Positions 9,829 to 58,100 of a DNA stretch of 64,000 nt are shown in pieces. How positions within the stretch are numbered: position 1 is the first letter of the stretch; each line of letters starts with the position of its first letter. Position numbers and translations under genes: made by a program. The notes under the pieces were generated by a model, which was not told the origin of the DNA, did no database searches, and worked only from the letters and a program-made list of their open reading frames with translations. The DNA is from Cliona cf. orientalis (Eukaryota; Porifera; Demospongiae; Clionaida; Clionaidae), in NCBI GenBank assembly GCA_963930775.1, contig OZ005707.1, positions 5,704,001 to 5,768,000 of the forward strand, in the 5' to 3' direction.

Positions 9829-9930
9829 ACGCTATTAGAAATTATCTGTGTATCAGTGACACTTTATTGTTATAAAATCTACATTTATAGTATAGTACAT
9901 ACCAGCAATTCTCTCTAGCTCTGTTAATTA

Positions 9931-9991
9931 CTTCCTTCTAATAATTAAGAAGCCACAGGAATGTACACGATTGGTAGCGTTTTGCGCATGC
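9931..9991 (+). promoter_or_regulatory. Conserved proximal promoter block of receptor A1
   Basis: CTTCCTTCTAA..AATTAAGAAGCCAC (near-palindromic, with a homeodomain-type TAATTA core) is followed about 30 bp later by TGCGCATGC at 9983-9991, an NRF1-like half palindrome. The same two blocks stand upstream of A2 and A3 and partly of A4, so they predate the duplications. Confidence 0.5.
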
Positions 9992-10051
9992 TCAAATCAT
10001 ACAGATCGAGCATTTACTCTCTGCAGTGGCAGTGCTAGTCGAGGATTTGCG

Positions 10052-13000
10052 ATGGCTATCTTTATCAGAGCAAATCTATTTATAACGTTGATATTTGTAA
10101 CACCGAGGATAAATGCTATTGCTGCCACTAACAACGATGACTTTGGGCCCTACTTGGAGGTCTACCCGCCCGTTGATCTCTCTCAAAATCAGTTCGACTG
10201 CGTTCCTGAAACTAACAGAACGTGTCCGCTCTATATCGCCTTGACCATGCCATTCGGCGGTGAGTATTTCGGCGGCGGGGTTATGCCAGGCGTGCAGTTT
10301 GCTATCGACCAGATTAACGCTGATCCGGACTTATTACCCGGCTACTCTCTTCACTACACCCTCACTGACTCACAGGTACAGCTGCATAATTTTATTAATT
10401 ATGAAAATTTTTCCTACACTTTGTAGCTATGCCACCTAGAGTGTTATAATTAATTTTATGATCGTCAGTAGCCACACTGGCTCATGATCATGCACATTTA
10501 TAACGTCATATCAGCTGCATGCCACTGTTAAAATTTCAACTATAAACGTCTTATTGTTTGCTTGATTTAATAGTGCAATAGAACAGTGTCCCTAAGAGCT
10601 CTCCATGCTCAACTCTTCAACCCACCAATTAAGATAGCTGCCATGGGCTCAGGCTGCTCCATTGCAACCGAAGCATCTGCTGAAGTGTCGCACTTTTACA
10701 ACATTACACAGGTAGGTGACGATAATAATAATAATTTATTTTTATGAATCAGTGAGCGATATATTATAATACAATAATTATTGTTAACTATAATAATTAT
10801 TACAAGTGACCTAAGCTATAGTTAACCTTGTAAACATAGGACCTGGTCTTCTCAGGTTGAAGTGACTGGCTCGCCTATGATATAGCTACTGCACTACTAT
10901 AGCTATAATGGTAAATTTTGCTCTGATAAAAATTTATGGAATGTGATAGCCATGTACTATAGCTGTGTAGCTGGGTGCCATGAGTAAGTTGCCGGTTTAA
11001 CTTCCTACTTTTCTTGTATTAAAACAGGGAATCTGATTGCCATGACATTGAATCTAGATCTAGCTACTAGTTGAAATTTTAATCCAGTTGGTACCTGCTT
11101 TTTCTTGTATTAAAATACAGATTGCCATGACAATGTACGTATTATGGTGGGCTCTAGACAGTTCTATAAGTAATAGATATTGCATGGTAGGGAGTGTATT
11201 ATGGATTATAAAGCCCATGACCCCGAGGGCGCAGCCCGAGGGGGAGGGGCTTTATAATCCATAATACACGTGCCTACCATGCGACATCTGATATATATCC
11301 TGATTGGTCAGTTTCTTAGTGGTTGCATTTATCTGGTAGAAGTCGTTGGCTGGCATATTTTTAGTGCAGTGCACTATGGTGTTCACAGGGGATTATAATT
11401 GCCTGGGGGGAGGTCAATATTTTAGTTATAACACCCCTGTTACCTAGGATACAAGGGTGAATCAGGATATATTTACTAATACGCATAGCAAGTACGCTGG
11501 TTCTTGTTACACCAACACTGGCAGAATTGAATAATACTTGCTATGCGTATTAGTATCTATTTACCCAACCAAGAACCTCAAGATCTCAGTTCTATAATTA
11601 TACTGCAGGTGTCATGTGTTTCATCATCAGCTGCTCTGGCCAACCGAGTTCAGTACCCTAGCTATTTTCAGGTGCTCTCGCCAGATGTCAATTTGGCAGA
11701 TGGATTTCTTGCCATCATACAACAGTTTGGATGGAGAAAAGTGGGTCTTATTGTGCAGGATGAAAATCTATTGACAGTTGTGAGTTCAAATATACATATC
11801 CTTCATAAGGCAACTGGCAAACTGATGCGTGTATTATTCGTCAATTTCTCAGTTTCTTCTGCAGATAAACACAATTTAACTTATATTGTAACTGTTAGTA
11901 ACAGTAACAGACTAAGGTGTTGTGACATAACATGCATACGGCTACAAAACACAACTGTTACATTTTCGGTCTTAAAGTTTGTGTGAACCTACCTGCATGT
12001 TTCTGAAAGTCTCTAAATGTAGGAAATGATTAACGTTGCCTAAGAAGCTCCGCACCAAATCATGGCAAAGTGTGACCTTAACACCCTGCTGTTGTGCTGT
12101 ATATAGTTGTTAATTTTATGTCTATCTGTAGCCTTGTCCCCAGACTCCTCCTATTGTTTCAATGCATAGTAGCTAGCTAGCTAGCTACATGCAGAATATT
12201 TTTTCTGTGCATGTATGTAATATTAAAAGTGCTTTGGATCAAAGCTATAATCTATGGGGTGCCGTTTGTATCATTGAAAATTCATTACTGGCAGGTGTTT
12301 AGAAAACACTCAGGAGGGGATTTACAAAAGTAGTGGACATTTGTATAAATCATAGCGGATATTTGACATGAATTACAAATTTTAGAGATGCTGGGGATTT
12401 ATGAAAGTAGTGGAAATTTGCGTAAATCTCTCAGGTAGATATTGTGTAGCAGACATTTACATAATTGTGACAAACTTTTCTTTCTAAGACACATTTCCAA
12501 CTTGTATTGTGACATTTTTAATACATCCGTGGGCCAATAGTGTTGGAGCATGTTCAAAAGCTTAATTAAATCCCCACAGTATCTATAAATCTCGTCTAAG
12601 ATTTTCATAGTCTCCATTATGAAGTAATTAATGTCCAATTGCCACATTTCTAAATGTCTTTGAGATTTACATAAATTTCCACTATAGGGAGACTCTCACC
12701 AAAATATGAAATATTATTTTATTGTATCAAACTGTTGTATGGGTTGATAAGGTAACACAGAAATTTTTTAAAATTTTTTGGTCAACGTTTAGTGAGTGAA
12801 ACGCTGCTGCTTTTATCCGTCGTCCTACCGCTTACTTCTTTGGGGCGTGGTCAATGAAAACGTCATCGGTTGAACGGAAGTGCACATGAACGTGAGTATG
12901 AGCATTCAGTGTACATGTACCTCGAGTGTGAAACGAAAGACGGAGCTGGAGTCAAGAATGGTCAAGCGCTGCGTAGCCGCTGGGTGTTCTAACACCAATG

Positions 13001-16000
13001 CTGATGGTGTAAGCTTATTTAAATTTCCAAAAGATGAGAAGCTTCGCGCTCTTTGGATCAAGCAAGTTAGAAGGTTCCGAGCGGAGTGGACGTGTACCGA
13101 GTACTCTGTGTTGTGCAGTGAACATTTCAGCGACGAATGCTTCGAGGTTGAATCGAAGTTAGCTGCCGAGTTTGGAATGAAAAGGACAAAAAGGCTGAAA
13201 GCAGATGCTGTCCCAAGTATATTTACCAGGTCCTCGGCGACGAGTGGAACCCTCGGAAAGAGAGCCTCACCGTGCTCAAGTCAGAGTAGCGAGTCCAGCT
13301 CAAAGAAGCGAATGGCTTATGAGAAACGTGAAAACTATAGGGTATGTATAATTTCTGAGCTATAGTACTTGTAAATTTTAAATAGGGCCTGGTTGTAAAA
13401 TAAAAATACTGATACGAGTATCACAAATTATACAGATAGTCCAGGAACTTCTTGCAAGTCAATCTGCATCAAGTAGTGGTACTGGCATGGAGACACAAAC
13501 ACCAGATGAACAGCATACGCAAGGGAGTACAGAAAGTGATAACCGTACTGTTTCCAGGCAAGATGTTTCCATTCAAACTTACCCGTCAACCGAATCAAAT
13601 GGTAATGTATGTACACGTACATATCGTGTCACATATGAAGTGTGTGTGTGCGTGCATGTGCATGCTGTGTGTGTGCGTGTGTAACCTCCCATTTTCTGTG
13701 TAACACTGGGGATGAGGTGAACGATATTAATGGTTTGCAGCTATATACATATCTGGGTTTTCATTGCAGGTGTCCAGGTTTGTCCAACTGTTTGTGACAT
13801 CAGTATCCAGTGTGATCTACTGATAGTCTCTTCGACCCCATTACATGACGCTACTTCGGAATCAGAGCTATCTGACATTGAAGATCACAACATCAGTAAT
13901 ACGTCTACCTACATGCCCTCCAGTAGTTCGTAAGTTCTATCTTCTATCAGAACTGTAAGTTATCTTATTATTCTTTTATTTTTGAATATGTTTAGCTCAC
14001 ATTCAGAGTCTGATTCAGATACCCTGGGTGATAGCGTTGCAACTCCACCTGAGAAACAAACAACATACCTTGTATTCGAGTCAGCTCTTCTATTATTATT
14101 CCAAGTGTGTACGTTCTGTGGACATGCCAGTACCAGTATCAAAAAGTATGTGAGCGGCTCATTCCTCCGGATTATTCGATCATGTTCAAGATGTGGGAAG
14201 GTCTATGTATGGGAAAGTCAACCATATATCGGAAATTTGCCTGCTGGTAATTTGCTTACTTCCGCTGCCATATTGTTTGCTGGGGCATTTCCCGCAAAAT
14301 CCCTCCGGATTTTCTCCACTTTGAACTGTGCAACAATTAGCCAGGCTACATTCTTCCGTTACCAAAGTGCTTATCTTTTTCCAGCTGTTCGTCAGGTTTA
14401 TGAACGACATCAAAACTCTCTTTTAGCTGAGCTCCAGAAAAAGGATAACTTAATTGTTGCAGGAGATGGGAGAGCAGATAGCCCTGGACACTCAGCAAAG
14501 TATGGCACTTACTCATTGATCGAATTGACATGCAACAAAGTGGTAGATTTCAAACTTGTGCAGGTACATAATCATAATAATTGTATGGTCACATTAATTG
14601 TCTAATTAACTCACATAATTATTGAAGAAAGGTGTTGATTGCCATCTTTGTTGTCATATAGAGCAACGAGGTAGGAGGCAGTTACCATATGGAGAAGGAA
14701 GGATTGGCAAGAGCTATATCATTTTTGAGTGAGAAGAAGATGTCTATTGGTGTTTTAGTGACAGATCGACATCGACAGATAAACAAATGGATCCGAGAAA
14801 CCCATCCCAGTACAAAACACTACTATGATGTATGGCATGTTGTTAAAGGTATATTATCCGTTCAGACTATGTTTGAAATACTGTATAATATGACCATGGA
14901 TTAAACCTAACAATTACCATGACATTGTGTAGGCTTTCGAAAGAAGCTTGAAGCCCTCGCCAAGCAAAAAGATTGCAAATTAATTGGTGAATGGCAGAGG
15001 AGTATAATAAACCACATGTACTGGTGTGTTGCGTCCACACCTAATGACAATGGTGAAGTCGTCAAGGCTAAGTGGCTGTCGTTAGAAAATCACGTACACA
15101 ACATTCACAGTGGCCACAGTAAATTGTTTCCCAAGTGTGCACATGCTGGACTCAGCGGTTCTCAAGTGAAAAGAAAATGGTTCAAAAGACGTAAGTGCAC
15201 ACAGTTAGATTCTAAGTTACAATAACACACAATGTCAGTGTTGTAATTTACAGTCTTGCATGTAGTCTCTTTGATCCTTCAATATGGTTATTTCCATGCA
15301 GACACCAAAGAAAGTGAAAAGCTTTGTGCACTACTTACTGACACAAATCTACTAAAAGACCTTACCAGGCTCTCTCCACTGTACCAGACATCTCATTTGG
15401 AATCATTTCACAGCGTAATAATACACTTTGCACCCAAGTCAGTAGCTCTTTCTTATCCAGGAATGACTTCCAGGTATGTAGCTATAAGCAGATACACGAC
15501 TTCAGTATCAGTATCATAATTATTATGATTTTCACAGGATGCAGCTTGCTACCCTCCACTTCAATGAGAATAGTTGCCGCAAACAGGCTGTCACAAAAGA
15601 TGGCAAGGAATCGTACGAGATTGTTTTTCCCAAATACAAAAAAGGCGGGTATATTACCAGAAAAATTACTGTTGACCCCACATACGGTGAGCTCTAGTCT
15701 TTATGTGTGCATAGGATACCCTTGTATAAGTTATTTTTATTATAGATTACGTAAATGAACTTGTTGCTGAGAGTGTCAACCAACACATCAAACGGGATCA
15801 GCTGAAAACAACCACCCCAGCCCAACCATCAGTTCCCAAACCTTTATGTAGCGAGTTTGAAAGACCAAGTAAAGAAGATGCTATACAGAGACACAAGAGT
15901 AGATTTACTTAAATCTTCATGGTATATTGAGTTATGTATCATTTGAACTATAATGCTATCTTTAGTACAGTCGTGTAGTGGGATACTTGAAGCCAATGTA

Positions 16001-19000
16001 TGATTCTGAAGGGAAGGTGTCTCTGATTTTCTTAACAGCGCAGCTTGGTAGTACAACTCGGACCTTTCGTCCCAACCAACCCCAGCACCATCCTGTAAGC
16101 TGTCGGTATGCTGTGAATCTGTATTGCCTGAGGCAAAAAAATTAGCATAGGGTAAATACCACCCACTTGCTACTTATATAAAATCACTTACTCATGGATT
16201 GGCCTATCTTCCGAATCACTGCCATAACGTTCACGATAAGCAAAATAGGCTGCCTGAAGAACCCATCGATTCAGGCACACAGCTTGAAATCCTTCATGAG
16301 AAGTTATGCAGTCTACCTCAGTATCATTCTCTTCTATTTTACGAACGACTTCATCCACCTCGCGACAACAGACACATTCAACACCAGTTGGCATTATAAC
16401 ACATTGTCCACATGTACACCTACACAAATTATAAATATAAATGGCCTGCTATCCGATCACAGCTCAAACGGTGTTACCGTGTAGCTAAATCATGATATAA
16501 TTGTAAGATTATCACGATGCACTTACCAGTCAGTGCTGAGCAGACGCTCAGCGCTGCCAGTTTCTTCCTCATCTCGAGTGGCACTATCTGAATCACTGGC
16601 TACAGGTTCATACATGTACGGTTCGATGGCCCCATCAGAGGCTGAATCGTCCTCTTCTTCAAAAGCGTACGATTCATCGGTAGCTGAGGACTCAGACAAA
16701 GATCCATCTCTCGAACTTTCACCCGAGCTTGAAGCGTCCCCTGACTCGGCCATTCCTATATAGATCCTCACTAGCAGTGCGCGTTCATTGTGTGTGCACT
16801 AGCACTGCACTTCCGTTCAACCGATGACGTTTTCATTGACCACGCCCCAAAGAAGTAAGCGGTAGGACGGCGGATAAAAGCAGCAGCGTTTCACTCACTA
16901 AACATCGACCAAAAATTTTTTAAAAAATTCTGTGTTACCTTATCAACCCATACAACAGTTTGATACAATAAAATAATTTTTCATATTTTGGTGAGAGTCT
17001 CCCTTTAATGCTCACTATTAAATCCCCACAGTATCTCATAATCTCTAAATGTTATGTACATTAGCCTAGCTAGGCTTTGGGTGCAATTACGTAAATATCT
17101 ATAAAATTAATGTCCACTATTTTTGTAAATCCCCAGCTAGGTGTTTTCTAAATTTCCATCACCAATGAATTTTGATACAAATAACACTTCATAATTATTT
17201 ATCAAATTTAAATGCAATTTTATGGAATGAGATATCAGAAAATGAGCTGGGAATTGAATTAACCTAGCTTGGGGGCATTGGTAGGCTAATGTTGGGTCTT
17301 AGCTATAATAGCTAAGTCATCTTTAACTCAAATGCTCTAAGTAATGCACTGTTATCTCTTTCAGACTATGGATAGGCTCAAGCGATTTCTGGATCAAAAT
17401 CGCATCGAATACTCCGAGAGACAATTTGAAACAGAAGGGGGTATAGAATCACTAGGAGAAAACCCATTCGTATGTCACTAATTAAGGCTCTTATAAACCC
17501 TTCATGCGTAACAACGTCAATGTGTATAGGACCCTGAAGCAAGAATATTCGTCCTTGCTATGTTCCCATTCAGAGCACTACATCTCATGTGTAAGGTAGG
17601 CATTCCCATAATAATATTATTATATCCTATCTATAGAGTCTCATAAGTATACAACCATGCATATACATGACACTGTTCATTCAGTTCCATTAATATTCAC
17701 TATCATGTAGCTATAGCTCTCTCTACTGTAAATGTACTTAAATGTTGTATAGCTATATAGACAGCATGATCTGGCATGCAAGATCACTCCAGGTATGATT
17801 TAATGTGATAAATCTTCATGCATGCAGGCATTTGAGCACGGTATACGATACCCACAATACATTTTTCTCTTCTACGGATGGTATGAAAACAACTGGTGGG
17901 TGGGAACACAGGAAGAACAGAATATCCTTCGCAACATATCAGAGTTCTCAGGCTGCACTGCTGAACAGAGGGCAAGTGTGCTGCCTTACTCACTGGCTCC
18001 ACTTCAGGCTGAATTCCTGCAGGATCAAAATGAGAGTACCATCATTAGCAGCGGCATTGTGAGCTATTAAAAATTAATTTCAATGCATCAAAGTAAAGAC
18101 TGTAACTCTGAAAATGACATTCAGAGATGTAGCTATTAATAACAGAGGAACTAAGCTAGCTAATTGATCATGCTTTGTCAAATTGATACAGATCTGCAGC
18201 ATGATATACCGTCCTTAAGTTTCCTAATAATTTTTATAGTATCGATTACTTTCATTACCAAAAAGATTATACTATACTGTCAGTTAGATAATATAAATAG
18301 GAAAGGGAAATTGAAACCAAGAGACTGCTCTGTTTATCAGTGGGTTCTGCACTAATGGTGCAGTTTCTTGGTATCAATAATAATAATTATTATGTGTACA
18401 CCGCACTGATAGTAGTTTACTCAAGATGCTCTATAATAATATTATCATGAATTGCAGAATGGTACACAGTTTAGAGCAGAAACCAGAAGGTATCGGGATA
18501 TGTCAAGATTCAATCTGACACGGGATGATGTCTATTCTCAGCAGTGCTATGATGCCACGTGGGCTCTAGCATATGCCCTCAATGATACACTCGGTGACAC
18601 TGGTGAGATATACCATACACATAGTATCAGTTTAGAAAATTATTAGCTAATAATAGAGCATCAAGGAAACGAAGAGATAATTGATCTACAGCAATTTCAA
18701 TACAACAATTCTCAAGTGCTACGAAAGGTCAGGGGTCACTTAGAAGAAACAAATTTCACTGGAATTACGGTATGAAAATTAACGTTATCTAGCTACAGCT
18801 ACCAATAACATGCAGTTACAATCACTGAGCGGCTCTATATTATATAATATTATATATACACAGAAAAACGAGTGGTTCACATTAATCTAATGTGGGTTGC
18901 TTCAGTTTCACACACTATCCTTCCCATCATAGTTTTCTTCATAATCCAGTTAATAATAATAATAGTACAACCATGTACTACCAGTATGTCAAACATGCCA

Positions 19001-23156: not shown

Positions 23157-23233
23157 CTTCCTTCTAATTAAGAAGCCACATGCATGCACGTGTATGATAT
23201 TAATTTTTATTGGCGTTTAATGTTTGCGCATGC
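23157..23233 (+). promoter_or_regulatory. Conserved proximal promoter block of receptor A2
   Basis: Same CTTCCTTCTAATTAAGAAG palindrome-like box and TGCGCATGC (23225-23233) as in front of A1 and A3. Confidence 0.5.
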
Positions 23234-23300
23234 TCAAAACATAGGAATCGCTAGGAGAGCTCTTGCCCTCCGATCCGCAGTGCTAGTCGAAGCTAATACG

Positions 23301-26300
23301 ATGGCTATAAAGTTTTATTTTATCGATGTAAATTTATTAATTTTGATACTTGCAACACCGATGATAAACGCTGTTGCGGCTAGTAACAATGATGACTTGC
23401 ACTATGGCCCCTACTTGGAGGTCTACCCGCCCGTTGATCTCTCTCAAAATCAGTTCGACTGTATCCCTCAGCCAGCTGAAACAAGAACGTGTCCGCTCTA
23501 CATTGCGTTGACCATGTCCTTCGGCGGTGAATATTTCAGCAGCGGAGTTGTGCCGGGTGTGCAGTATGCTCTCGACCAGATTAACGCCGATCCGGACTTA
23601 TTACCTGGATACTCGCTTCACTACACACTCACTGACTCACAGGTACAGCTTAACTTCTGGCAATGTAATATGTTATATATACCGCTATAGAGATACTATG
23701 ATGCCTCGGATGCCACACTGGCTCATATACATTACTTGCAATGTAGCTATAGCCGATGATTAAATTTATAATTTTCTGCTTGATACAGTGCAATAGAACA
23801 GTGTCCCTAAGAGCCCTCCATGCTCAACTCTTCAATCCACCAACTAAGATAGCTGCCATGGGCTCAGGCTGCTCCATTGCAACTGAAGCATCTGCTGAAG
23901 TATCACACTTTTACAACATTACACAGGTAGGTGACGATAATAATTATGCATGAATCCAACTCATGCATGCCTCCTAATTACATACCAAGTGCTGCACTGA
24001 TGACTCGGAGGCACAATTAGGCCAAAGCAGCTGTCACTATTTCGTTATGTACACATCCATTATTATCTCTATATTATAGATATCTATTGTGTTTTATATT
24101 ATACAGCTGTCATGTGTTTCATCATCAGCTGCTCTGGCCAATCGAGTTCAGTACCCTAACTACTTTCAGCTACTTGCACCAGATGCCAATTTGGCGGATG
24201 GATTTCTTGCCATCATAAAACAGTTTGGATGGAGAAAAGTGGCTCTTATTGTGCAGGAGGAAAACCTACTGACAGTTGTGAGTTCAAATTTTCTTCAAAC
24301 ACAATTGGGAAATGTAGCTAAAGACCCCATCTAACAAATTTATGTGTGTTAATTGCTATTACTATCACTGAGACATGTACAGATTGAACCAGTGGTGTCG
24401 CCAGGGGGGTGCATATGTGGGTTCATTTGCACCCAATCCATGCATCTGTGCACACCCATCCTATATATGCATATGTATCCACCTGTGCAGTTACTTTCAA
24501 TAACTTTCCCCCAGTAAACAATTATTATCTAGAGACACCACTGGGTTAAACTTCCTTTCAGTGCAGAAAATGGACGTGATTCAACAGCAGGACACATAGC
24601 AACATGATATTATATCTTGACCCTTATTAATTTGACCATTATAGAGCTTCCTCAACCAGGTCCATTGTTGCTGAAAGACCCTGGTTGTACATGTAGCTAG
24701 GGAAGTTTCCTGAGAAAGTCCTGGCAGAGGGCCAACTTGAACATCCTGTTATTGTGCATGGGTTTATGTCTAGCTATCGGTAGCCTAGGATCCTCCCAGG
24801 CTTTCAATGTTCAGTACATGCAATATTTATCTGCATGTAGCCAACATTGAAGAACTGCATAGCATGGATTGAAGCTAGTCTTCAAGTTCCACTCTCTTTT
24901 AGCTTGCTCTAACGAAAGTTAATTATCTTTTCTAGACTATGGACAGACTCAAGCAAGCTCTGGATCACAATAGTATCAAATACTCTGAGAGGCAATTTGA
25001 AACAGAAAAGGGGATAGAATCACTTGGAGAAAATCCATTTGTATGTCACTAATAATTAAGGACCTAAGCTTATTGTATTATGCGATAGCTAGAAATCATA
25101 CACTACATACACGTAATGTGTATACAGGATCCTGAAGCAAGAATATTCATTGCTGCTATGTACTATGTCAGAGCACAACATCTTATGTGTAAGGTAGGCA
25201 GGAATAGCATGCTAGCTCCCTTCCTATTACACTTAGCTCTCTCTTTTGGAATTAATTTCTAACACTTATTGTGTATAGGGAGTGGTCTGACATGCAAGAT
25301 CATTCCAGATATCAAATTAACGACAGTGTCAATCGTCTGCAGGCGTTTGAGTATGGTATAAGATATCCTCAATACATCTTTCTCTTCTTCGGATGGTATC
25401 CTAACAACTGGTGGGTAGGGACAGAGGAAGAACAGGATCTCCTTCACAACATGTCAGCATTCTCAGACTGCACTGCTGAACAGAGAGCAAGTGTGGTGCC
25501 TTACTCACTGCTAGCTGGCTCCACTTCAGGCTGAATTCCTGCAGGATCAAAATGAAAGTGCCATCATTAGCAGCGGCATTGTGAGTTTAAAGTCAATGCA
25601 AGTAACGATACATCCAAGTAGAAGACTGTAGCTGATCCCAAAAGTACTAGTAATAATTATTGAGCCAGATTGGTGATGAAACCTTTACGTTAGAAGGCAT
25701 AGCTAACCGTTACAGAGAAATCATTCTTAGCTACTACCTGCATACTATAGCTTTGATGTAGCTCTTGAGCGTGACATGATACACTGTCATTAAAGCTTTT
25801 CTAGTTGATTACAGTGTCTATAAGCTATGGATAACATAATTAGACACATACATGAAACCAAGAAACTGCACTATTAGAACTTCCATTGCAGAATGGTACG
25901 CAGTTTCTAGCCGAATACAACAGATATCTGACTATGTCGAGATTCAGTGTAGCATCAGATGTCTATTCTCAGCAGTGCTATGATGCCACATGGGCTCTAG
26001 CATACGCCCTCAATGACACACTAACTGGTGAGACAAGGCATATTACAGTATCCCTGACTATAATTAGCAATAATGACAGAGCATCAACGAGAGGGAGGGA
26101 TTGATCTACAACAGTTTCAGTACAACAATTCTCAAGTGCTGCAAAAGGTCAAGGGTCACTTGGAAAATACAGATTTCATTGGAGTTACGGTATGTTATCC
26201 AGCTACCAGCAAAAAGTTACATACACACCCTGTCAATCTGATTATCAAAGATCTATAATATTGCACACAGGGGAGAATTACATTTGGTCCTGATGGTGTT

Positions 26301-39337: not shown

Positions 39338-40074
39338 GCCCTGTGGATCGTTAGACAATGAAATTGATAACAATAATGAGCAAATCATTGTGATGCCCAT
39401 TCGTCTAGACTAAGTATGTTATCATCGGAATCCGAATGGAGCCCACCTCTCTCTGAACCATATTATTATTTCCAATTCCCCGATGGACAACTGCATAGTC
39501 AAAAGTTTAAGTACATGCACATGTAGTGAGCCTGGGAGATGGGAGTTATACATGCAGTGACGGTGGTGGTGATATGTATGAGGGGAAGGAACACTGAGGT
39601 GCCCCTGTGCAACGAACTGGTAATGAAGTTGGTAGCGAGGGTGCTGGTAGCTATAGGAGGTATGGTAGATAAAGAGTGAAGAAATAAGTGATGTTGACCT
39701 TTAAGGATAATAACATGGATGTGGATGCCCTGCTACCACCGAAGTCTGCAGGTACTTTTCAGTACAGTGCTGTAGGCTCCCATGTGTGCTTAAACTTAAC
39801 TAGTGATTTGGGCCTACATGCATGAGCACCTACCTGGGTTATCTGTATGGAAGCTGCTACTTTTTCCCCTTGAAGTTGCCACAGTAGCTAATGTGGTGTG
39901 TGAGTGCTTGCCCGGGATACTACGGTATTTAATATACAGTGTAAACAGGTCCTCTGATAGAAATTCCTAATTTTGACTAATTTCACCAGGAATACTATAG
40001 GGTAGCATAAGCACATCGCTATAATATGTTTATCATATGCATGGAAGGTCAAAATCAACTTGTGTACTAACTTA
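39338..40074 (+). pseudogene. Decayed copy of the 494-aa gene, part 1 (between A3 and A4)
   Basis: Equivalent to 29222-29950: exon 2 relics with stops. It is interrupted at 40074 by a LINE insertion and resumes at 43542. Confidence 0.75.
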
Positions 40075-40075
40075 C

Positions 40076-40970
40076 AGTGGGGCTTTCTTGAAGGTAGATC
40101 AACAGTTACCGCTCTACTCCATCTGACTGATCAATGGCTCCAAGCATTGGAGGTAGGTCATGATGTGTGTGCAGTGTTCTTCGACTTTCGAAAAGCGTTT
40201 GACTCTGTGCCCCACTTACCGTTGATGAAAAAGCTACACTCTCTTGGGCTTCATGAGATCTTAATCTGCTGGCTAAACAACTATCTTGCTGGTCGATCCC
40301 AGGTGGTCGTAGTCAATGGTTCTGAGTCGTCTGAAGCTGCTGTTTTATCTGGTGTTCCTCAGGGCTCTGTGTTGGGTCCTTTGCTGTTTCTGATATATAT
40401 TGATGATTTACCGATTGTTGTTCAAGGACTTCTGAGTGACTCAAACGTTAATTTGTTTGCTGACGACATCCTTCTCCATCATGTTATTACAAGTCTTGCT
40501 GACTATGCTACTCTGCAGTTGGCAGTGTCTTCAATCGAGGCATGGTCTAAATCTAACTTCTTATCTTTCAATACAGGAAAATGCAAGTATATGATAGTCT
40601 CGCGGAAGCAATTTCCAAAAGTCCCTTGCAGCCCTTTGATGCTTTTTGGAAGTCCAATGGAACGAGTCGAGTGCTACAAATATTTGGGTCTCCTACTCTC
40701 TACCAACTTGAGCTGGTCAGCTCATATCGACTCCATCTGCTCTAAAGCTAAAAAGATTCTAGGATTAATCTATAGAAGGTTTTATCCTACTCTCTACGTT
40801 GGCTTGGAACTCATTATCAAATGATCTTGTCACATCACAAACAAGAACTCCTTTTTCCCTAGGACGACGTTGGCTTGGAACTCATTATCAAATGATCTTG
40901 TCACATCACAAACATACTCCTCATTCAGGAAACAATTATTATTAGTCATTTAGTTACTATAATTTCATGC
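40076..40970 (+). pseudogene. Non-LTR retrotransposon reverse transcriptase fragment (CR1/L2/Jockey type)
   Basis: Reads GFLEGRSTVTALL, then RT motif A (FFDFRKAFDSVPH), motif B (SGVPQGSVLGPLLFLIYIDD), motif C (NLFADD) and the thumb block CYKYLGLLLS. The apparent start codon upstream belongs to flanking host DNA. After YPTLY an internal deletion and a direct duplication of about 60 bp (40798-40858 and 40868-40915) break the frame. The true C-terminal block (AWNSLSNDLVTSQTYSSFRK, stop at 40950-40952) lies in another frame. Endonuclease and the N-terminal half of RT are missing, so it is inactive. Confidence 0.85.
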
Positions 40971-55100: not shown

Positions 55101-58100
55101 TTTTATGCAACATAGCATATATAGGAGATGTCTCATCCCACTGTAACCTATACTGGTAGTATGGGTAGCCACCCAATCAGCCACTATTCCAGGTAAATAT
55201 CTAGATCAGCGCGTGCAATCCAATATATTTCAAATTCAAGTTAACCATTCTCATTCCATTAGTACTATCCATATTCATCCCCTTGAACTAGATGTGGTCA
55301 TACTTTTGGCATAAAGTGGGGTGAAAAGAGTAAATTCCTATCCTTACCTACCAACACACACCCACCTAGATATCCCTCTGCTATTAATTCCATTTAACTA
55401 CCTAAAACTTCATTTAATGACATCAAAACTGGCGAACAAAGCGATTTTGGCAAAATCAACACAAATCATGCATTTGGAATGCCACAAGAAACCTCATAGC
55501 ACCGCAAATTGGACTCGCAAACGAGGTATGATAGATAGACAGATATTTTAATGTCACGCATAGAATAATGCATCCGGCCAGGATTTGGTCTATGTGACAA
55601 ATATAGGTTATACTACAAGCACAAGTGGGATAAGCGATTTACACCACAAATGCTTCAACGAGTGGTGTAATGGCTTATCCCACGAGTGGGCATAGTATAA
55701 CTGATTTGTACCACTGAAATGAACCACTTTACGTCACACTGTAAATTTTCCAGATAATTAAGAGAAGAGGTCATGCAGGCTTGCATACAAAAACTCAGCA
55801 AGTGGCCAGTGCGATACCAGTGCTTAGTAGCTAGTTGTGCATAGTAGCTCTTGATCTGCGGCTATGGTCCGGATCACTAATTGAAATTGGCTCATCTACT
55901 AGACTACAGATGGTCACACTAATCTTGAGGTCAACATGCAGATTTGCAGACCAGATGTAGCTGCATGGATATCATAGCAAATTAGGCCCATATGGCAGGC
56001 CCCTGAGTTGCACAGAGCTGTGTGGATACCTACAATGCACACAGTGCCTGTGCTTTTGCTTATTCTGAGCTGTTTTGGAACCTTCTCTAATTTTTCGACA
56101 TCCCATGATTCACTACAAAAAAAAAAAAACAGGCCTATACTTTTTACTCTGTGGCTGTAATAATTACTACTTCAATGTAGCCACTGCTTAAAATTCAATT
56201 CTGTGAAGTTAATTAGTAAACGTGCTGTAGCTAGGCTAGCAAAACCACCAAGAAGGTGAGGTGTAAGTTGTAGTTGCTAGGCAAAACCACCAAACACGCA
56301 CAGTATTATTAAGTTATAATTGCTAAGTAAAACCACCAAGCATGCACTGCGGTTAATAACGACACGAAAGTGCTCAATATTAGAGGTGTAATCATAAGGA
56401 ACCAATAAGATCAGCAGAATGGAAGAGTAGAGGGGGAAAGGTTAAAGAATAGAGATAGGATAGGAAATGGGGAAGGGGGCATTTTTTTCTTTTTTTGGAA
56501 GGAATATCAATCCCTCTTTTTTTGCCTTTTTGAATTTTTTGGCATGGTATACACGATCAGATGATTGTATATAGGACAAGATCACAACTGTTATAAAGTA
56601 CTTCACTGATAGTGACAGTAATATAAAGACAAAGACTAAGGAGACACCATGAACAAATAACAGATCTAGACAGTCAAACCATAAAATTAATGATTAAGTG
56701 TGGACAGTTACTAAATCAGTGTGGAAAAATCAGGGAATAACATCTACAATGTAATTAGTTGAACTAAAATTAAACATACTAAGTCTTATTTACATATCTT
56801 TTGTATGTAGCAGCTAGCGTAGACAGAACGACTACTGGGTTAATAATTATTTCATAGCAGTATACTTTGCTACGATAAATACAAAGCCATCATCGTCATA
56901 ATTATAATCCTTCTGTACTTTCAAGAGGCTGTCCTCTGGAAGTAAGCTGTAGCGAACATCCAAAAGACCACCTTCCCTTAACGATTCTAGGACAAATTCT
57001 AGCGACACTCCAAGAAGTATAAATTTATTCCCTCCAATATGATAGCGACCATAGCATTCGGTGGTCTTGAGGCCACAGAAGAGCAATAAATATCCACCTG
57101 GTTTGACGAGAGATATCAGCTTTTTGATTGCATCCTTGTAGTCGCCTTTAGTCTCACATGCTCCTCCGAGGCAAAGAATATTCATCACAATATCATATTG
57201 TGGTCCAGCAAAGCCCTCAGCTATGGGTGGATCTTGCCTTATGTCACATGGAACCACTGCTTTGATAGACTTTCGTAGATTTTCTTCTCGTTGGGTAATT
57301 TCGCATTCATCTTTATTTCCTTCTAGAGTTTGGACTACATATTTAATGTACGGAGTCCAATCCCAGGCTGACGGATCTTTGTCTAGCCACAGCTGTACTG
57401 CCTCACGACATCCATTGGTGAACTCTGCAAGAACGATTTCAGTAGCCGGAATTCCAGCAGCACTGATGACGTGCGCTATTACAGGCCCACATCCATAGTC
57501 CAACACCTTCAAAGTCTCTCCTGGCTTCACTGTGTCAAATTTGGTAGCTTTAAAGAATTGACACACCTTCCCAATGGCAAAATCTCTGAGTGCATTACCA
57601 CCTGGGCATCTATAGTTGATGCAGAGATAGTCTATAGCGCTGAATCTACTCTGGAAGTGGTTACTACTCATACTTTTAATAACCGTGAGCTGAGCTATCT
57701 ATGGTATCTCGAGATGGTGGCAACCTATTGAAAAGAAGAACTTCCTCGCCCGGCTAGCTATACGGTAGCTCTTCAGGAATCTCGTTAAATACGTGCAGAC
57801 TTACTCATTGGTAAGTTTAATCGCAGGGTTTCCCCCAACCTGCCAAGGAGCATCACTTTTGTATGGAATTCCACGCCCTTGCACTCTGATAGTCTATATT
57901 CAATAGAAATTATATGCGTAGCTATAGTTAATAAATTTATAGTCTCTAGGATTTTGTTAAGTAGACGGAGACGACTGGATGCTGTTTTGCCGTGCATTTG
58001 CTGACTATAGCCACGTGACAGCTAGGGGAAATTGTCATGTGGTAACGCGCATGCGCAATCTATATAGGCACGCTAGCGCTATTAAGGGTATAACTGACTG

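Follow-up and report, generated by a model that had tools for sequence, protein, structure and literature searches.

Two convergent genes within one pair of inverted repeats

The window, that is, the whole stretch of 64,000 nucleotides of the sponge Cliona cf. orientalis analysed here (contig OZ005707.1, C19, positions 5,704,001 to 5,768,000), carries an element that begins with AGGG at position 12686 and ends with CCCT at position 17004. The initial annotation had described 198-bp inverted repeats at this place, enclosing two intact spliced genes. A repeat search within the window recovered these arms at 12680-12884 and 16806-17010 (205 nt, 96% complementary), and inside them every exon of both genes is open and the introns are of the GT-AG type, so both descriptions hold. 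The splice models are based on open frames, the splice consensus and homologous copies. The features are as follows:

12686..12884, plus strand: left terminal inverted repeat, starting AGGGAGACTCTCACC; the flank reads CTAT where TTAA is expected
12958..15912, plus strand: Kolobok-type transposase gene, 9 exons, 736 aa, stop TAA at the end
12958-13341, 13436-13601, 13770-13929, 13996-14563, 14662-14848, plus strand: transposase exons 1-5
14933-15190, 15302-15473, 15538-15686, 15746-15912 (stop TAA), plus strand: transposase exons 6-9
12970..13224 (C19:5716970-5717224), plus strand: THAP DNA-binding domain (Pfam)
15962..16753, minus strand: KolX gene, 3 exons (16753-16527, 16419-16192, 16127-15962), 206 aa
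16806..17004, minus strand: right terminal inverted repeat, ending CCCT and followed by TTAA at 17005-17008

The two genes converge, their 3' ends lying 49 bp apart, and the start codons of the transposase and of KolX are 73 and 52 bp inward of the terminal repeats, respectively. Since both genes start so close to near-identical sequences, the repeats are probably promoters that co-express them. Short repeats flank the element on both sides, at 12277-12593 and 17017-17173, in direct and inverted copies (for instance 29 nt, 90%, at 12565 and 17017), as if the element sat among copies of another small repeat.

In the spliced 736-aa protein Pfam detected a THAP domain (E 1.5e-17), confirming the THAP transposase proposed before, while matches to DDE_Tnp_ISL3 and MULE were weak and under their cut-offs. 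An H2CH finger was read by eye only (HVHNIHSGHSKLFPKCAH), as were the motifs of the catalytic frame, GDGRADSPG, LVTDRH, DVWH and HLESFH, in which the D/D/E represents the Kolobok signature. The first exon of KolX encodes an acidic, serine-rich stretch, and exons 2-3 encode a zinc domain like the P2X7 ballast. The spliced protein matched P2RX7_C with E 6.6e-19, and a PDB search up to E 1 returned four distinct sequences, all of them P2X7 (best 7.4e-9), in support of the earlier claim that the minus-strand gene follows the P2X7 C-terminal domain. All seven cysteines that the published motifs of P2X7 predict were found; MAFFT aligned the CC pair in register with P2X7, although phmmer's own alignment did not, and the WCTCGQC motif is interrupted by an intron that splits the W codon. 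Neither window protein matched the P2X_receptor domain of Pfam at E up to 0.5.

Other frames of the window were read by eye. Similar open frames at 9896-10426 and 23172-23690 (plus strand), perhaps a tandem family, resemble what we take to be the ligand-binding start of GABA-B-like receptors, and the one at 40006-40824 (plus strand) resembles the reverse transcriptase of a non-LTR retrotransposon. A 283-aa single frame at 56847-57698 (minus strand) looks similar to NNMT-type methyltransferases, and SRCR-like frames were also seen.

Assignment to Kolobok and the Kol0 lineage

The THAP domain, the D/D/E with its DVWH motif, and the flanking TTAA and AG...CT ends of the sister copies identify the element, almost certainly, as a Kolobok. 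Thirteen loci were scanned for inverted pairs. TTAA was present on both sides at nine of them (L009, L010/L047, L040, L041, L043, L048, L049, L050 and L051), and no TTAA-bounded inverted pair was found at three (L042, L044 and L045). In the window copy TTAA is present only at the right end, the left flank being CTAT, and a class-B element (see below) likewise has TTAA on both sides. The AG...CT termini, which correspond to 5'-RR...YY-3', are found in the sister copies, window included.

A THAP domain with an H2CH finger is usual in Kolobok transposases, according to the part of PMC6004289 that treats them. In the article text of Kojima & Bao 2022 (PMC9587614), the Kol0 lineage (type Kolobok-1_XT) is defined by two proteins, a DDE transposase and KolX, by TTAA target duplications and by 5'-RR/YY-3' ends, and sponges are among the named hosts. 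There KolX has the fold of the cytoplasmic ballast of P2X7, resembling P2X7 476-595, and the authors conclude that P2X7 originated by fusion with KolX. Judged by its sequence, the window element shares the RR/YY termini and the THAP domain of Kolobok, whose TTAA target duplication is seen in the sister copies, together with KolX as the second gene of Kol0. The Cliona cf. orientalis elements are new families.

Following that text, elements of the Kol0 lineage regularly carry KolX, and a transposon as the source of the P2X7 tail was already published in 2022 (PMC9587614). The main claim of the initial annotation, which linked a mobile element with the P2X7 tail, is thus correct but known. What we add is a count of the transposase and KolX pairing, present in nearly every copy, in one genome.

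Transposase and KolX stay together

A search of the 217-Mb genome gave 28 P2RX7_C matches, all above the cut-off, and there were none in 14 control genomes; since only the best candidates were scored, match counts are lower bounds. At all 28 a Kolobok-type transposase lies on the opposite strand, tail-to-tail, bearing in mind that loci found through P2RX7_C keep KolX by nature. The window-type transposase core was found within 5 kb, on the opposite strand, at 15 matches. The 13 matches not of the window type were probed with class-B and class-C transposase exons. At twelve of these, a locus of about 3.3 kb includes C-terminal transposase exons on the strand opposite to KolX, and at C1:21809103 N-terminal exons only were seen, in the 10-kb locus L044. 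A class-C match, C3:10996094, also has a weak window-type core match within 5 kb.

The same was seen from the transposase side, where 62 core matches were grouped by hand into 23 loci: KolX lies within 5 kb at 20 of them (four by tblastn only). No KolX was seen at C1:26197107, C1:26183634 and C11:4606791, all with only part of the transposase in the 4.5-5.5 kb fetched. Thus the two genes do recur together in other copies, a check that had been proposed for this element, and the refuting condition set beside it, copies that consistently lack the second gene, was not borne out. Pairing in almost all copies found suggests a partner protein that assists the transposase. C1:26197107 and C1:26183634, in the region of the partial transposases L053 and L054 (C1:26182500-26200000), lie 13 kb apart on the same strand. 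One match stops and the other starts close to residue 426 of the window protein, and the two are possibly pieces of a single element interrupted by later insertions. One scan of viral contigs with a class-C protein found no relative.

We then compared substitution in the two genes over 12 class-A (window-type) loci, with L009 treated separately. Against the 11 other copies, KolX exons 2-3 gave pN 0.15-0.32 and pS 0.64-0.90, and transposase exons 4-9 gave pN 0.20-0.32 and pS 0.77-0.89, so that the two are conserved about equally. For KolX exons 2-3 dN/dS was computable in 4 of the 11 comparisons and was 0.11-0.14, two of these having a dS near 3, which is close to saturation. Exon 1 of KolX is less conserved (pN 0.27-0.57). 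L009 is the closest copy: its identity to the window, taken over 100-bp steps, is mostly 94-100%, and both its transposase and its KolX exon 2 have suffered deletions. Its dN/dS of 0.91 in KolX exons 2-3 was set apart from the other copies, as it results from indels and is no measure of selection.

Three classes and the THAP/CXC split

The KolX loci fall into three classes: A, B with 7 loci, and C with 6. A THAP domain lies within 7 kb of 14 of the 15 class-A P2RX7_C matches and at three of four extra KolX loci, the overall exceptions being C1:10977717 and C1:28561005; near class B and C it was found at 0 of 13 matches within 7 kb, among the 104 best candidates of the THAP search. The terminal repeats of class A are about 200 bp in the window, L009, L010 and L043, with shorter detected arms in L040 and L041, and those of classes B and C are 26-32 bp where delimited. 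Class-A KolX has introns within the ballast domain. In classes B and C nine of the 13 matches, one of them with a stop, have most of the domain within a single frame, and the remaining four are partial or decayed. The class-C loci L048 (C2), L049 (C8) and L050 (C1) have perfect 26-bp end repeats with TTAA on both sides, and L013 and L014, on two contigs, are 99.8% alike across about 2 kb, which points to recent movement of class C.

CXC-like cysteine repeats were found in or just upstream of KolX at 10 of the 13 THAP-less loci: beside five of the six class-C matches by search, the sixth being only the stretch after the repeat, and in five of the seven class-B loci by eye. The repeat and the ballast share one frame in L013, L014, L017 and L020. 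In L012, L016, L018 and L019 the repeat has a frame of its own, upstream of the ballast and on its strand, which implies an intervening intron or break, and in L015 a stop separates the two. A further CXC match, at C2:6960627, has no P2RX7_C nearby. Among seven CXC-like segments Pfam gave weak matches to TCR in one (E 0.018), preSET_CXC in three (best 0.028) and CSRNP_N in one (0.035), and the PDB gave none up to E 1. At four places the class-C transposase starts with a basic exon instead of THAP. Given this exon and the weak CXC likeness, KolX need not supply DNA binding; still, the THAP/CXC split, as seen in the sequences, suggests that KolX and the transposase may share out this function. 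The passages of PMC9587614 on this lineage do not mention classes that lack THAP and have CXC-like repeats within KolX or next to it.

KolX as a candidate transposition partner

We consider the element a low-copy, autonomous-looking Kolobok of the KolX-bearing Kol0 kind, in which KolX would act as a transposition partner, and give this reading a probability of about 0.65. The near-identical terminal repeats would serve as promoters, providing transposase and KolX together. The transposase would recognise the ends through its THAP domain and cut and paste at TTAA, with target duplications visible in the sister copies. KolX, a free form of the P2X7 ballast domain, would be a needed partner of this reaction: most likely folded around zinc, it may join the complex of transposase and DNA, or the target, and aid assembly or recruitment. 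The persistent pairing, the equal constraint and the CXC-like repeats of the other classes are what point to such a role.

Harbinger transposons, which encode a transposase and a Myb-like second protein, offer a model that works in a similar way, a transposase with a DNA-binding helper encoded by a separate gene. However, both the superfamily and the helper differ from those of the window element, and we claim no membership.

A different role for KolX within the same element, outside the transposition machinery, would be that of a regulator or an antagonist of host silencing. The acidic, serine-rich N-terminus of the window KolX, its being a separate gene on the other strand, and possible zinc and nucleotide binding (with only the equivalents of R546 and R578 of the rat GDP site kept) would fit this. 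We regard it as somewhat unlikely, since a regulator by itself predicts neither that the pairing should persist in classes whose transposases and terminal repeats differ widely, nor the THAP/CXC split.

Going further than the partnership, KolX could be a core subunit of the complex that shares DNA binding with the transposase, the P2X7 tail having come from a CXC-bearing, one-exon KolX and not from the THAP type; we hold this extended proposal to be unlikely.

Relationship with the P2X7 tail

KolX shares with the ballast of vertebrate P2X7 and with Nanor the zinc cysteines and the AYR, PSC, IR..FP and Y.GF motifs, but has no channel or membrane part, and in class A the loop between CC and the next Cys is longer. 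The ballast was aligned (MAFFT) over 18 domains: the window, 10 class-A, four class-B, two class-C and one rat P2X7. Seventeen class-A loci had been tried for it, and seven (L010, L023, L031, L045, L052, L055 and L056) were dropped for short matches or stops, a rule applied regardless of the outcome. The CxCxxC, CC and PSC cysteines are near-constant in this alignment, and the CIT cysteine, missing from the four class-B rows, is retained by P2X7 and by classes A and C. At the rat GDP site, counted by eye, the window KolX keeps R546 and R578 but not H547, R574 and K583; the same pattern is reported for animals outside the deuterostomes in the text of Rump et al. 2020 on the spread of the ballast domain among animals (PMC7016195).

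The main text of that paper does not contain the term 'transpos'. According to its Fig. 6, ballast-domain genes and two markers share an ancestral synteny that extends from sponge to molluscs, and these markers might be transposon genes travelling along.

That the domain came from a transposon, as proposed in the initial annotation, is plausible, but the window's own class does not stand out as the donor, the scores of P2X7 being somewhat higher, with overlap, against the other classes. An intron-bearing KolX with a THAP transposase as the direct kind of donor would agree with the ballast tree, where rat P2X7 falls on the class-A side, and with L021, which scores 57.8 bits against rat, inside the range of classes B and C. 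However, with an open fork (86/100) and a rat branch of length 4.01, this placement says little. Against rat chain 6u9v the window scored 38.9 bits, below class C (L013, 44.5) and class B (L017, 46.2), and in blastp against the rat segment class B gave 55-65 bits, class C 52-57 and class A 34-58; in view of this overlap, and of the longer loop that costs class A some of its score, they give only a hint on the donor class. In addition, the P2X7 ballast is encoded in one exon, as described in the text of PMC7016195, whereas that of class A is interrupted by introns and most class-B and class-C matches have the single frame described above. Descent of the tail directly from the window's class is therefore quite unlikely.

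Finally, the P2X7-like exons can hardly be part of a host gene that the transposon had entered, and we rejected this reading, since the three-exon frame is complete within the repeats, the pair recurs at every one of the P2RX7_C places, and the P2X_receptor exons of this genome lie on C10 (212-228 kb), with no P2RX7_C among the matches listed there, and on C2 (4.61 Mb), about 456 kb from the nearest one.

With its counts, this one genome supports what had been published on the tail of an inflammation receptor, namely its origin as a protein of a transposon. It also turns the job of KolX, and perhaps that of the P2X7 ballast, into a question that a transposition assay can test.
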